Assembly: GCA_029248185.1 (NCBI GenBank)
Contig: JAQWJV010000040.1
Span: forward strand, 20,479 to 84,478
Origin: Flavobacteriaceae bacterium
Lineage (GTDB): Bacteria > Bacteroidota > Bacteroidia > Flavobacteriales > Flavobacteriaceae
Direction: 5' to 3'
Length of the DNA: 64,000 bases
Part shown: one piece after another, positions 4,366 to 49,014 of the stretch
How positions within the stretch are numbered: position 1 is the stretch's first letter
Layout of the letters: every line of letters begins with the position of its first letter
Made by a program: the position numbers and the translations under genes
The notes under the pieces: generated by a model
Seen by the model: only the letters and a program-made list of their open reading frames with translations
What the model was told of the DNA's origin: nothing
The model's database searches: none

Positions 4366-4791
4366 TTAATGCACAGTAATCAGCTTTTTGGGCTGAGGGA
4401 GTGCTTCTTTTCGTTTGGGCAACGAAATATGGAGCACGCCTTCTGCATAATTTGCCTCAATTTTTGCAAGTTCAACACTTTCGGGAAGCGTAAATGAACG
4501 CCTGAAGCTATCATAACTAAATTCTCGACGTGTAAATTTTCCTTTTTCAGAAGTTTTTTCTTCTTTCTGGTTAGCAGAGATAGAAAGAATTCCCTCCTCC
4601 ATTTCAATGGTGAAATGATCTTTTTGCATTCCCGGTGCGGCGAGTTCTATCTCAAACTGCTTTTCTTTTTCTATGATGTTTACAGCAGGTTGGGATATGG
4701 AAGATGAAAGTAGTTTGCTATTCCATTCTTGATTCATGAAATCATCTACCAACGATGGAAAAAAGGGTGTTTGTTTGCGTATTAAATTCAT
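4366..4791 (-). CDS. Hsp20/alpha-crystallin family small heat-shock protein
   Basis: FEIELAAPGMQKDHFTIEMEEGILSISA ... RREFSYDSFRRSFTLPESV typical of the ACD domain. Confidence 0.93.
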   Translation of the reverse strand: MNLIRKQTPFFPSLVDDFMNQEWNSKLLSSSISQPAVNIIEKEKQFEIELAAPGMQKDHFTIEMEEGILSISANQKEEKTSEKGKFTRREFSYDSFRRSFTLPESVELAKIEANYAEGVLHISLPKRKEALPQPKKLITVH

Positions 4792-4829: not shown

Positions 4830-4861
4830 GCTAAAGCAAAATCAAGACCAAAAGCAAATTT

Positions 4862-4874
4862 TGACACTTTGGCA
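4862..4874 (-). promoter_or_regulatory. TGnCAnnnTGnCA element (TGCCAAAGTGTCA on minus strand) upstream of hsp20
   Basis: Same pattern occurs at 4894-4906 and upstream of htpG. Confidence 0.5.
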
Positions 4875-4893
4875 TTCTTTTTCAATAAAAAAC

Positions 4894-4906
4894 TGACATT
4901 TTGTCA
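4894..4906 (-). promoter_or_regulatory. TGnCAnnnTGnCA element (TGACAAAATGTCA on minus strand) upstream of hsp20
   Basis: Inverted repeat, 32 bp from the second copy. Confidence 0.5.
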
Positions 4907-29410: not shown

Positions 29411-29670
29411 ATGGGGTTGTTTGTTTTATTAGAAATCTTTTAGTCCCTCACCAAAACTAAGAAAATTAATATTAGGGAAAAGATTGCGAGACTGACTGCA
29501 TCTATATTTTTTTAAGTTGTTGCATTTCTTACCATGTATAATACCATAAGAACTATGAACCTTTGAGTATTTTTTGACTCTATTTAAAAGAATAAATACT
29601 TTTCATTTCGCTTCAATTTCATGGCATACTATTTGAATAATAATATTTAGTGCACCTAAAATCTAAAAAA

Positions 29671-30978
29671 ATGCCTCGTCTTTTATTCCCCTTTGTTTTA
29701 CTCTTGCTGGTTACCTGCACAAAAAACATCTACATAAACCCTGAGACAACGGAAGAAGGAGGACGAAGAGCGACCAAGGTGGCCTATTATATTCCTCAAT
29801 ATGCTGCTCCAAATGAAGGTCCTTTAAAAGTAGAACGTATCGCTCCACAACCCATGGAAGAAACGGGTAAAATCCTCTACTATCAAAACTATATTTTCAT
29901 CAATAAGCCCCAAGAAGGAATACATCTCATTGACAACTCCGATCCCAGCAATCCAATCAATGAAGCCTTCATCACCCTTAAGGGAAATATTGACCTCAGT
30001 ATTATAGACGGTTATTTATATGCGGATCAGTTTTCTGCTTTGGTTGTTATAGATATTCGAGACCTCAATAACATTCAATTTATAGAATCTTACACTCTTT
30101 CAGAAATTTTCAATTACGATCGTTATTGGGCTTTTGAAGTCATTGATCAAGCGGATGCCTATGAGTATATTCGCTTTGAAAATATTGAGGACAATAAAGG
30201 AATAGTGGTTGGCTGGGAACTAGAAATAAGATGGGAAAACATTCCCAAAAACCGCTTTATCTTTTTGGATGGTTTTACACAAAACTACGAAAGTGCCGCT
30301 TTGGCTATAGAAGAAGTGCAAAGTGACACTTCAATTATAAGCCAAGCTGGATCACTTGCGCGTTTTTTACCCATTGGGGGATTCTTGTATGTATTAAATC
30401 AATGGGAACTTATTTTGTTTGAAATTGACACAAACTACCAACCCCTCCGTTATGGAAAAACACCGCTTAACAATAATGCCGAAACATTGTTTCAATTGAA
30501 TGACTTACTTTTCATAGGAACCACCACGGGAATGTTACTCTATGACGTTTCAAGACCAACAAATCCTGAATTCATCAATAGTGTGGATCATTTTAGAAGT
30601 TGCGATCCAGTAGTTGCTGACGAAAAGTATGCTTATGTCACCCTGAGGGGAGGAACAAATTGCTTTACCACTCGAAATGAACTTCAAATTATTGCTCTTG
30701 AAGATCCCGAAAATTTAGAGGTGATCTCTAGCCAGCTTTTATTTAATCCTCATGGATTGGCTATTTACCAAAATTATGTTTTGGTTTGTGATGGGACCGC
30801 TGGGATGAAAGTAGTAGATGTTTCCAACCGAGAAAAACCCGAAGTGGTCAATACCTACCCGATTCCTTTTGCTTATGATGTTATCATTGATTATCCCAGC
30901 GCTATAGTGGTGGGCGAGGGCAAGTTGTATCAATATGATATAAGTAAACTTCCCCAACTGGAGTTAATTAGCAATTAG
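29671..30978 (+). CDS. LVIVD-repeat/beta-propeller lipoprotein
   Basis: Lipobox LLLVTC; LVVIDIRDLNNIQFIESY, MKVVDVSNREKPEVVNTY. Confidence 0.8.
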   Translation: MPRLLFPFVLLLLVTCTKNIYINPETTEEGGRRATKVAYYIPQYAAPNEGPLKVERIAPQPMEETGKILYYQNYIFINKPQEGIHLIDNSDPSNPINEAFITLKGNIDLSIIDGYLYADQFSALVVIDIRDLNNIQFIESYTLSEIFNYDRYWAFEVIDQADAYEYIRFENIEDNKGIVVGWELEIRWENIPKNRFIFLDGFTQNYESAALAIEEVQSDTSIISQAGSLARFLPIGGFLYVLNQWELILFEIDTNYQPLRYGKTPLNNNAETLFQLNDLLFIGTTTGMLLYDVSRPTNPEFINSVDHFRSCDPVVADEKYAYVTLRGGTNCFTTRNELQIIALEDPENLEVISSQLLFNPHGLAIYQNYVLVCDGTAGMKVVDVSNREKPEVVNTYPIPFAYDVIIDYPSAIVVGEGKLYQYDISKLPQLELISN

Positions 30979-45659: not shown

Positions 45660-46316
45660 TTATGCCATCTTAAAGGTCTCTTTCCAAAGAAATTTTCCAA
45701 AATCGATGATACTATCAAGAGGGGTGTTGTCAAATAACTCAAAAACTGTTTGTACGGATTTTTCAATCGCCATGTCTGTTTTCTCAAAACCAGGTGATTT
45801 GTCTTCTTTCCAAAACTTAAGGAGGAAGAGTAATTGCACCCATGCCCCTTCTGAAAAGAGAGATTCGGGATGTTTTGTAAACCGTGACTGCTTGTGTACA
45901 TTCCCCTCTTCAATGAGACCCGAAGCGAATTGTTTGAAGGCAATTCTTAAACCCTTTAAAGCCATCAGTTGTTGCATTTTGTTTTCAGAAGTTGAGAGAG
46001 TAAATAGGACATAACTTCTATTCAATAGCAATACCTCGAAGAAAGTATAGTAAAAAGAAAGGAGCTTTTCCTTTGGAGGTTGCGTATCATACCCTTTCTC
46101 CTTACTGATCAAAGAAAATGCATTGTCAAAAAATTGATCAAAAACAGCTTCTTTAACGTGGTCTAAAGAGGAAAAGTGCTGGTAAAAAACGGATTCTTCA
46201 ATTCCGCTTTTTTTGCAAAATTTAAATACTGACTTAGGCTCTGTTTCGTGTTCTAAGACATGGTCGCTATACGCTTCAAATATCTTTTCTTTCAAATCTA
46301 AATTGTTTTTTGACAT
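45660..46316 (-). CDS. TetR-family transcriptional regulator
   Basis: N-terminal HTH: KIFEAYSDHVLE...KFCKKSGIEESVFYQHFSSLDHVKEAVFDQFF. Confidence 0.82.
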   Translation of the reverse strand: MSKNNLDLKEKIFEAYSDHVLEHETEPKSVFKFCKKSGIEESVFYQHFSSLDHVKEAVFDQFFDNAFSLISKEKGYDTQPPKEKLLSFYYTFFEVLLLNRSYVLFTLSTSENKMQQLMALKGLRIAFKQFASGLIEEGNVHKQSRFTKHPESLFSEGAWVQLLFLLKFWKEDKSPGFEKTDMAIEKSVQTVFELFDNTPLDSIIDFGKFLWKETFKMA

Positions 46317-46395: not shown

Positions 46396-46408
46396 TGTCA
46401 TCTTGTCA
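46396..46408 (+). promoter_or_regulatory. TGnCAnnnTGnCA element (TGTCATCTTGTCA) overlapping the htpG -33
   Basis: Matches the two hsp20-upstream elements; TTG 46403-46405, 18-nt spacer, TATTTTTT from 46424. Confidence 0.5.
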
Positions 46409-46465
46409 CAATTTCAAATGTGGTATTTTTTTTGTCTATACGATACAAAACAAAATTTAAAACAC

Positions 46466-48349
46466 ATGAGTACAGGAAAAATTAATGTAGCCGTCGAGAA
46501 TATTTTCCCGCTAATCAAGAAATTTCTTTACAGCGACCACGAAATTTTTTTAAGAGAATTAATTTCCAATGCCACAGATGCAACAACGAAACTACATCAC
46601 CTAAGTAGCTTGGGTGAAATCAAGGGAGATCTTGGATCCACCCAGATCGAAATCAAGATTGATAAAAAAGGAAAAAAGCTTCGCATCATTGACCAAGGGA
46701 TTGGGATGACAGAAGAAGAGGTTCAAAAATACATCAATGAAGTTGCCTTTTCGGGGGCTGAAGAATTTCTGGAGCAATACAAAGACACCGCCAAAGACAG
46801 CGGAATTATCGGTCATTTTGGGTTGGGATTTTATTCTGCCTTTATGGTTTCAGAAAAAGTTGAAATCATCACAAAATCACACAAAGATAGCCCAGCCACC
46901 CACTGGACTTGTGATGGTTCTCCTGAATATACATTAGAAGCTTCAAAAAAAGAAAATAGGGGAACTGAAATCATTCTCCATATCGACAAAGACTCTAAAG
47001 AATTTTTAGAAGAGTCCCGTATCAAGGAACTTTTAACCAAATACAACAAGTTCATGCCGATTCCAATAAAATTTGGAACTCGAGAAGAAACCCTTCCTTT
47101 ACCAGAGGGAGCGGCAGAAGATGCAAAACCAGAAACCATCACGGTTGATAATATCATCAACAACCCAGACCCTGCATGGACCAAAAAGCCTGCAGATTTA
47201 AAAGATCAAAATTATAAGGATTTTTATCGGGAATTATACCCAATGCAATTTGAAGAGCCTTTATTCAACATTCACCTAAATGTAGATTATCCTTTTAACT
47301 TTACGGGTATTCTTTACTTTCCAAAATTGAATAACGACTTAAACATTCAAAAAGATCGCATTCAACTCTATCAAAATCAAGTGTTTGTTACGGATAACGT
47401 TGAGGGGATAGTTCCAGAGTTTTTAACCCTTTTAAGAGGTGTTATTGATTCCCCTGACATTCCTTTGAATGTTTCGCGAAGCTACCTCCAAGCCGACGGT
47501 GCTGTTAAAAAAATCAGTAACTACATCACAAGGAAGGTTGCAGACAAATTGAATAGTCTTTTCAAAAAAGATCGAAAAGGTTTTGAAGAAAAATGGAATG
47601 ACATCAAAGTGGTTATTGAATATGGAATGTTGAGTGAAGATAAGTTTTTTGACAAAGCAGAAAATTTTGCTCTTTACCCCACAACGGACGGGGAATATTT
47701 CACTTTTGAAGAATTAAAGGAAGCTGTAAAAGAGCATCAAACGGACAAAGAGGACAAACTTGTTCTTTTGTATGCTTCAGACGTAGAAGAACAACACAGT
47801 TATATCACACAAGCCAAAAACAAAGGATATAAAGTTCTGCTTTTAAACTCACCCATTATTGGTCATTTAATCCAAAAACTAGAGGGAAGTAAAGAGAATG
47901 TTTCTTTTGTTCGTGTGGATGGAGACACCATTGAAAATTTAATCAAAAAAGAGGAAGCCTCCGTTTCAAAACTCACTGAGGAAGAAAAGGAAACACTTAA
48001 ACCCATGATTGAAAATGTGGTAAAAGAAGGTGGCTATACCGTTCAAATGGAAGCCATGGACAGTCAAGCCTTACCCTTTGTGTTGACACAACCTGAATTC
48101 ATGAGACGGATGAAGGAAATGCAGCAAACAGGCGGAGGTGGAATGATGATGGGTGACATGCCCGACATGTATACCCTGACCGTCAATACGAACCATGAGT
48201 TAGTGGGTCAAATTCTTTCAACCAAAACAGCAAAGAAAAGGGAGCGCCTAATACAGCAAGCTGTTGATCTTGCGCGATTATCCAGAAATCTTTTGAAAGG
48301 GGAAGCCCTGACAGAGTTCATTCAACGCAGTGTTGAACTCATCAAATAA
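46466..48349 (+). CDS. htpG: molecular chaperone HtpG (Hsp90)
   Basis: MSTGKINVAVENIFPLIKKFLYSDHEIFLRELISNATDA, GHFGLGFYSAFMVSE. Confidence 0.97.
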   Translation: MSTGKINVAVENIFPLIKKFLYSDHEIFLRELISNATDATTKLHHLSSLGEIKGDLGSTQIEIKIDKKGKKLRIIDQGIGMTEEEVQKYINEVAFSGAEEFLEQYKDTAKDSGIIGHFGLGFYSAFMVSEKVEIITKSHKDSPATHWTCDGSPEYTLEASKKENRGTEIILHIDKDSKEFLEESRIKELLTKYNKFMPIPIKFGTREETLPLPEGAAEDAKPETITVDNIINNPDPAWTKKPADLKDQNYKDFYRELYPMQFEEPLFNIHLNVDYPFNFTGILYFPKLNNDLNIQKDRIQLYQNQVFVTDNVEGIVPEFLTLLRGVIDSPDIPLNVSRSYLQADGAVKKISNYITRKVADKLNSLFKKDRKGFEEKWNDIKVVIEYGMLSEDKFFDKAENFALYPTTDGEYFTFEELKEAVKEHQTDKEDKLVLLYASDVEEQHSYITQAKNKGYKVLLLNSPIIGHLIQKLEGSKENVSFVRVDGDTIENLIKKEEASVSKLTEEEKETLKPMIENVVKEGGYTVQMEAMDSQALPFVLTQPEFMRRMKEMQQTGGGGMMMGDMPDMYTLTVNTNHELVGQILSTKTAKKRERLIQQAVDLARLSRNLLKGEALTEFIQRSVELIK

Positions 48350-48405: not shown

Positions 48406-49014
48406 ATGATTGATTCACAATTGCTTTCCACTGAAGGTGAACCTTTACTTTTAAATGACGCTCAGATTCGTTACTACGAGTCCTTCTTTACTCCTAAAGA
48501 AGCCGCAACAATCTTTGATCAATTACTTGAAGAAACTCTTTGGCAACAGGATCCCATTACTGTTTTTGGAAAAACTTATCCCCAACCCCGCTTGACTGCT
48601 TTGTATGCCATTAACACCAAACCCTACTCCTATTCAGGTATTAGTATGAAACCCAAAATCATGACCCCTTTACTTCAAAAAATTAAGCATAAAATTGCCT
48701 CAATTTCTGAAGCTGAGTTTACTTCAGTCTTACTGAATTTGTATCGAGATGGAAAAGACAGTAACGGATGGCATGCTGACAATGAAAAAGAATTAGGCAA
48801 AAATCCAATTATTGCTTCGCTGAGTTTTGGGGAAAACCGATTTTTCCATTTAAAACACAGGCGCAATAAAGAAGACCGCTTGAAAGTATTATTAAAATCA
48901 GGAAGCTTATTGCTTATGGAAGGAAATACACAAGAGCATTGGCTACATCAAATTGCTAAAACAGCTCGACCCATTGGCCCTAGAATCAATTTAACCTTTC
49001 GAAAAATCATGTAA
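48406..49014 (+). CDS. AlkB-like 2-oxoglutarate/Fe(II) dioxygenase
   Basis: NGWHADNE HxD motif; RINLTFR C-terminal motif. Confidence 0.92.
   Translation: MIDSQLLSTEGEPLLLNDAQIRYYESFFTPKEAATIFDQLLEETLWQQDPITVFGKTYPQPRLTALYAINTKPYSYSGISMKPKIMTPLLQKIKHKIASISEAEFTSVLLNLYRDGKDSNGWHADNEKELGKNPIIASLSFGENRFFHLKHRRNKEDRLKVLLKSGSLLLMEGNTQEHWLHQIAKTARPIGPRINLTFRKIM

Follow-up and report, generated by a model that had tools for sequence, protein, structure and literature searches.

The TGNCA-N3-TGNCA elements upstream of hsp20 and htpG very probably serve, judged from sequence, as enhancers, or upstream activating sequences, in a proteostasis regulon controlled by sigma-54 and worked by an enhancer-binding protein (bEBP) that is encoded in the groESL gene cluster. 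Downstream of the element, after 11–13 nt, comes a -24/-12 promoter of the sigma-54 type, TGGYA-N6-TTG. In the 64,000-nucleotide stretch of Flavobacteriaceae DNA that was analysed, here called the window, the features concerned are:

4894..4906, minus strand: TGACAAAATGTCA, the distal enhancer-like element at hsp20, followed after 43 nt by the TGG of the -24 element
4862..4874, minus strand: TGCCAAAGTGTCA, the proximal enhancer-like element at hsp20, followed after 11 nt by the TGG
4836..4850, minus strand: sigma-54-type -24/-12 promoter of hsp20, TGGTCTTGATTTTGC, its TGGNNN...TTTTG(C/T) form kept genus-wide
4366..4791, minus strand: hsp20, small heat-shock protein (PF00011, E 9e-23)
46396..46408, plus strand: TGTCATCTTGTCA, the enhancer-like element at htpG, followed after 12 nt by the TGG
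46421..46435, plus strand: sigma-54-type -24/-12 promoter of htpG, TGGTATTTTTTTTGT, scoring at or above the threshold
46466..48349, plus strand: htpG, Hsp90 chaperone (PF00183, E 3e-48)

The sequence confirms the positions and strands that had been given for the three elements, TGACAAAATGTCA and TGCCAAAGTGTCA on the minus strand and TGTCATCTTGTCA on the plus strand, as well as the 32 bp between the tandem copies at hsp20. The pattern, TGNCANNNTGNCA, is identical to its own reverse complement and each site has therefore been counted once. There are four sites in the window, against 1.08 expected from dinucleotide shuffles, with four being reached in 3 of 100 shuffles; the fourth match, at 48769-48781, falls within coding sequence. 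Motif number was therefore rejected as evidence, since a dinucleotide shuffle of the window accounts for most of the count. Number alone is weak evidence here, and the significance of the elements comes from their position and conservation. At htpG, the element is exact in all 19 genus members with a readable promoter, 12–13 nt from the TGG, and it is exact at this distance in most of the order sample as well. Of 21 genus members, 20 have an exact proximal copy at hsp20, at 11 nt, and 16, in which the 32 bp tandem is kept, have the distal copy at 43–44 nt with no more than one mismatch. Divergent from htpG is a TetR_C_23 protein (45663-46316, minus strand), followed by an ABC1/UbiB-type kinase, an arrangement seen in 13 of 30 loci.

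The original prediction had read both promoters as sigma-A promoters, with -33 and -7 boxes. Sigma-54 promoters have a different geometry, a -24 GG and a -12 G(C) at fixed spacing (TGGCAC-N5-TTGC). An alignment of the htpG promoters of relatives pairs the element with a conserved TGGYA-N6-TTG, 12–13 nt downstream, in which the distance from TGG to TTG is constant across the order and the intervening bases vary. The -24/-12 score is at or above the threshold in all 29 htpG promoters, including those with an exact element, and the -24/-12 is likewise present in 30/30 dnaK, 27/27 grpE, and 61/61 groES promoters (147/147 with htpG), where shuffles would give about 1–2 per promoter set. In the final position A or T often replaces C, and the -12 elements of groES are often imperfect. 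With -24 and -12 elements at fixed spacing, the chaperone promoters appear to be of the sigma-54 class. The sigma factor gene itself, rpoN, was found in 59 of 60 relatives.

It is extremely unlikely that these are ordinary sigma-A promoters (-33 TTG, -7 TAnnTTTG) overlapped by a regulator site. The second half-site is often TTGTCA, as that explanation would have it, and at one promoter, that of miaB-bEBP, the element really does overlie a sigma-A promoter. Yet of the promoters with an exact element, just 1/25 htpG, 1/20 dnaK, 6/21 grpE, and 5/39 groES have a TAnnTTTG no more than 40 nt away, and the fixed order-wide spacing of TGG and TTG also speaks against it. By the TAnnTTTG measure none of the chaperone promoter sets examined is of sigma-A type and only miaB-bEBP is. 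The sequence taken for a -7-like box at hsp20, TGATTTTG, is the 3' part of the -24/-12 element TGGTCTTGATTTTGC and not a sigma-A box, and the supposed -7 of htpG is the 3' part of TGGTATTTTTTTTGT.

The genome to which the window belongs (G000; 1.9 Mb, 89% complete) was examined by genome searches and in targeted stretches. Genome-wide there are 21 element sites, against 8 for a reversed control. About half of the 21 are intragenic and these are taken as chance occurrences. The promoter-type sites include those of hsp20 (two), htpG, groES, grpE-dnaJ, and dnaK. With the seed genes excluded, three of the five further chaperone units are among the seven site-bearing units (p about 2e-6, assuming 1000 transcription units). 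In a search for the composite of element and -24/-12 allowing up to 3 mismatches, only htpG, dnaK, and clpB were found at 1 mismatch or fewer. The arrangement of element and -24/-12 is present in this genome at htpG, hsp20 (two copies), dnaK, grpE-dnaJ, and clpB, and at longer spacing at groESL; the exact element of grpE is 11 nt from TGGCAGAACTTTTG, and that of groES is 33 nt from TGGCATGGTTTCTG, two turns further up. The genome-wide scan thus finds enrichment at dnaK, grpE, groES, clpB, hsp20, and htpG, which strongly supports the original proposal of a common regulator site on unlinked chaperone genes.

A further gene, lon (L004), has a very good -24/-12, TGGCATAACTATTGC, 119 nt before its start codon and is probably a member of the regulon. 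It has two elements downstream of this promoter, one imperfect and one exact, the latter inside codons 9-13, and this position would count against their being enhancers. Two near-identical TGACAC-N2-TGTCA-TTTTTTT boxes form the TGACACNNTGTCA sites before 3-hydroxyacyl-CoA dehydrogenase and etfB (L008, L018). They have no -24/-12 and are likely to be operators of a fatty-acid oxidation regulator with the same consensus. The dnaK gene of this genome (G000:C29:30392-32179, L118) has an in-frame TAA near codon 21 that is not present in relatives with full-length hits and is probably an assembly error.

Among relatives, the exact element is present in 25/29 htpG, 20/30 dnaK, 21/27 grpE, and 39/61 groES promoters, where shuffles give an expectation of about 0, and allowing one mismatch these counts become 29/29, 30/30, 25/27, and 59/61. 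It is absent in exact form before secG (0/71) and lptE (0/76), which are genes of the same cluster as groES. The one-mismatch elements, found at many groES copies and at outgroup dnaK copies, do count against an enhancer function. When 248 genomes of the order were scanned blind, the exact composite matched in 118, at more than 150 places among the matches listed, and a reversed-control composite had no matches in any of the 248. All 30 of the blind-scan loci inspected are chaperone promoters: grpE (26), htpG (2), dnaK (1), and groES (1).

The distances between element and TGG cluster at 11-13, 22, 32-35, 42-44, 53, and 62-65 nt, with few elsewhere. Beyond the Flavobacteriales, the groES promoters of the Bacteroidales loci L187, L194, and L202 also have the element, at 53, 33, and 33 nt from the TGG. 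The period of the longer spacings is about 10.5 bp, one helical turn; at this period the Rayleigh R is 0.88 for all 130 sites, and when each gene-distance pair is counted once (n = 27) p is about 1e-6, these p-values being indicative only as the sites share common ancestry. Such phasing would fit a protein whose contact with the polymerase has to be made from a single side of the helix. Against an enhancer function, the closest elements are centred near -44, and it is unusual for an enhancer-binding protein to act from so near.

Sigma-54 requires an enhancer-binding ATPase. The original prediction that the regulator is not identifiable in the window holds for the window itself, but a candidate is identifiable elsewhere in the genome, as a bEBP:

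G000:C12:44634-45911: bEBP gene, in the cluster miaB-bEBP-lptE-TPR-secG-groES-groEL

The genome has just two strong PF00158 proteins, of which only this one has an HTH and can therefore bind DNA through a known DNA-binding domain. It consists of an AAA+ domain (PF00158, E 9e-65) and a C-terminal Fis-type HTH (HTH_8, E 3e-11), with no receiver. The loop is GAFTGA or GSFTGA in all 61 orthologues, and the HTH core, LGISERTLYRKIK, is nearly invariant among them. With its PF00158 core, GAFTGA loop, and Fis-type HTH, the protein would be an activator of the NtrC/PspF type. It scores 265 bits against TIGR02974 (PspF), below the cut-off of 444, and is not assigned as a PspF orthologue; its scores against the remaining NCBIfam equivalogs are under cut-off as well. 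In the predicted structure (mean pLDDT 68) no sensor domain was found, and a helix at about 281-309 stands in an otherwise disordered, low-confidence linker. This helical stretch, between the lid and the HTH, is conserved. Across 80 loci fetched from the Bacteroidota, secG is in the bEBP cluster in 71 and groES in 61. In Capnocytophaga the bEBP is away from groESL, which counts against it as the regulator. The element is most likely the docking site of this conserved sigma-54 activator encoded beside groESL; that the bEBP would be its binder is an inference drawn from their co-occurrence, the gene cluster, and the phasing.

At miaB-bEBP, 54 of 61 loci show an exact element, and the promoter is of the sigma-A type. 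TAnnTTTG is 16-20 nt downstream of the element in 47 loci, which means that the element overlies the -33 region, and a number of Bacteroidales loci have a bEBP promoter whose -7 box merges into a TTTTGTCA half-site. Binding of the bEBP there would be expected to block sigma-A, so that negative autoregulation is probable; the sequence suggests that the bEBP probably represses its own promoter.

A natural comparison is available in the insect-symbiont family that includes G039. The retention of RpoN in reduced flavobacterial insect symbionts was called "unusual" in a 2014 genome paper and tentatively tied to nitrogen use or control (PMC3971599). Of 68 genomes in this family, 55 have rpoN and the same 55 have the bEBP, the match being split in G109 and G125. 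The 13 genomes without rpoN, which belong to three genera and are 0.2-0.3 Mb, have no bEBP except for one degraded remnant in G111 (Fisher p 2e-12, without correction for shared ancestry). The miaB-bEBP-secG-groES-groEL cluster is intact in the 345-kb genome of G039. In rpoN-bearing symbionts, 9 of 11 groES promoters have a -24/-12 and 8 have the element (6 exact), at 23, 33, and 42-44 nt, while all 11 groES promoters from rpoN-less symbionts have neither. This loss of element and promoter alongside rpoN is what would be expected of a sigma-54 promoter. The groES promoter of G126, an rpoN-bearing symbiont, is without both, which counts against the elements being enhancers.

These symbionts also bear on which protein uses the element. 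It is unlikely that the element is the operator of some other DNA-binding protein that represses or co-activates the sigma-54 chaperone promoters, for which the TetR-like protein encoded divergently from htpG would be an example. Palindromic TGNCA half-sites would suit many HTH dimers, the TetR_C_23 gene does adjoin htpG in the window, and similar TGACAC-N2-TGTCA boxes lie before fatty-acid oxidation genes in this genome. However, endosymbionts of 0.3-0.6 Mb keep the element together with rpoN and the bEBP, and groES loses it without them, a co-distribution that is shared by no other factor among those examined. The TetR neighbour was rejected as a general regulator, being beside htpG in just 13 of 30 loci, and the element persists in most of the others. 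It is very unlikely, and less likely again than an operator, that the chaperone promoters are driven by a second activator (receiver and AAA+, no HTH), with the element serving another purpose. The sole other strong PF00158 protein in the genome is of this type and is encoded, in this genus, near grpE-dnaJ, but it is without a DNA-binding domain and so could not alone account for the element. Furthermore, endosymbionts give a single match to the bEBP model yet keep the element and the -24/-12; a second-type activator would be detected in this comparison, matching the HTH-bearing bEBP at E 1e-63.

With the groESL-cluster bEBP as the activator, sigma-54 RNA polymerase would form a closed complex on TGGYA-N6-TTG before htpG, hsp20, dnaK, grpE-dnaJ, clpB, groESL, and probably lon. 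A dimer of the bEBP HTH would bind TGNCA-N3-TGNCA next to the holoenzyme, where the gap to the -24 TGG is 11-13 nt, or at sites a whole number of helical turns more distant upstream, and the bEBP would use ATP to open the closed complex. At its own sigma-A promoter, the same element on the -33 region would probably serve for repression. The signal may be heat or misfolded protein, the "heat shock" label following from the identity of the genes. Control of the bEBP by chaperones, for example through titration by GroEL or DnaK, is the preferred guess because the bEBP is co-encoded with groESL and has the conserved helix at 281-309. It is somewhat probable that the chaperone response is run throughout the Bacteroidota by sigma-54 and one dedicated, sensorless bEBP encoded alongside groESL, which would work from enhancers adjoining the polymerase or placed entire helical turns off, repress itself, and read chaperone load directly, and that this is the sole reason for which the symbionts keep rpoN.

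PspF, the enterobacterial phage-shock activator, is likewise an AAA+ protein without a receiver, with a Fis-type HTH and a stress regulon, and its gene has a sigma-70 promoter overlapped by PspF's own binding site. The bEBP is similar in its receiver-less AAA+ and Fis-type HTH architecture and in the element overlying its own promoter, but differs in its proposed chaperone regulon, in the length of the linker ahead of its HTH, which contains a conserved helix, and in sharing an operon with miaB and groESL. Sigma-32 (RpoH) and HrcA/CIRCE control the same target genes in heat shock, though through another promoter class and another operator, in place of the sigma-54-type promoters and putative enhancer found here.

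Sigma-54 promoters at flavobacterial chaperone genes were known. In Flavobacterium psychrophilum, according to the passages searched, sigma-54 starts (SM4) were mapped by 5'-end sequencing at groESL, lon, dnaK, grpE-dnaJ, htpG, and clpB, the same genes and the same -24/-12 class as here (PMC9723704). Neither an upstream element nor a named activator appears in those passages, in which three PF00158 proteins are given as possible activators, and hsp20 is not among the SM4 genes in the part of the table covered (PMC9723704). Blood agar and osmotic stress, not heat, are the conditions reported to raise the regulon (PMC9723704), which counts against reading it as a heat response. Sigma-54 control of GroEL, GroES, IbpA, GrpE, DnaJ, and DnaK has also been predicted for the Bacteroidota, highest in Flavobacteriia, in a study whose covered parts deal with sigma-site prediction only and hold no enhancer motif or cognate activator (PMC12316311). 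What appears to be new is the enhancer motif with its phasing, together with the activator that would serve it and the link to the symbionts. No description of the enhancer, phasing, or cognate bEBP was found in the open-access literature, subscription journals being outside the coverage, and no DNA-binding regulator of the Bacteroidota chaperone response is named in the open-access papers found.

In guts and oceans alike, the Bacteroidota rank as a dominant phylum. The result supplies a named gene, a putative binding site, and a spacing rule, each of which can be tested in a laboratory strain. Should the bEBP regulon prove true, it would explain why tiny insect symbionts keep a puzzling rpoN, and the joint retention or loss of rpoN and bEBP would answer this puzzle directly.

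The receiver-bearing, HTH-less sigma-54 activator (L117:1765-2928, minus strand) adjoins an MscS-like channel as well as grpE-dnaJ. In the window there is also a good -24/-12 sequence, TGGCATACTATTTGA, at 29622-29636 on the plus strand, 35 nt before an LVIVD-repeat protein (29671-30978) and without the chaperone enhancer; this promoter may belong to the targets of a second sigma-54 activator.
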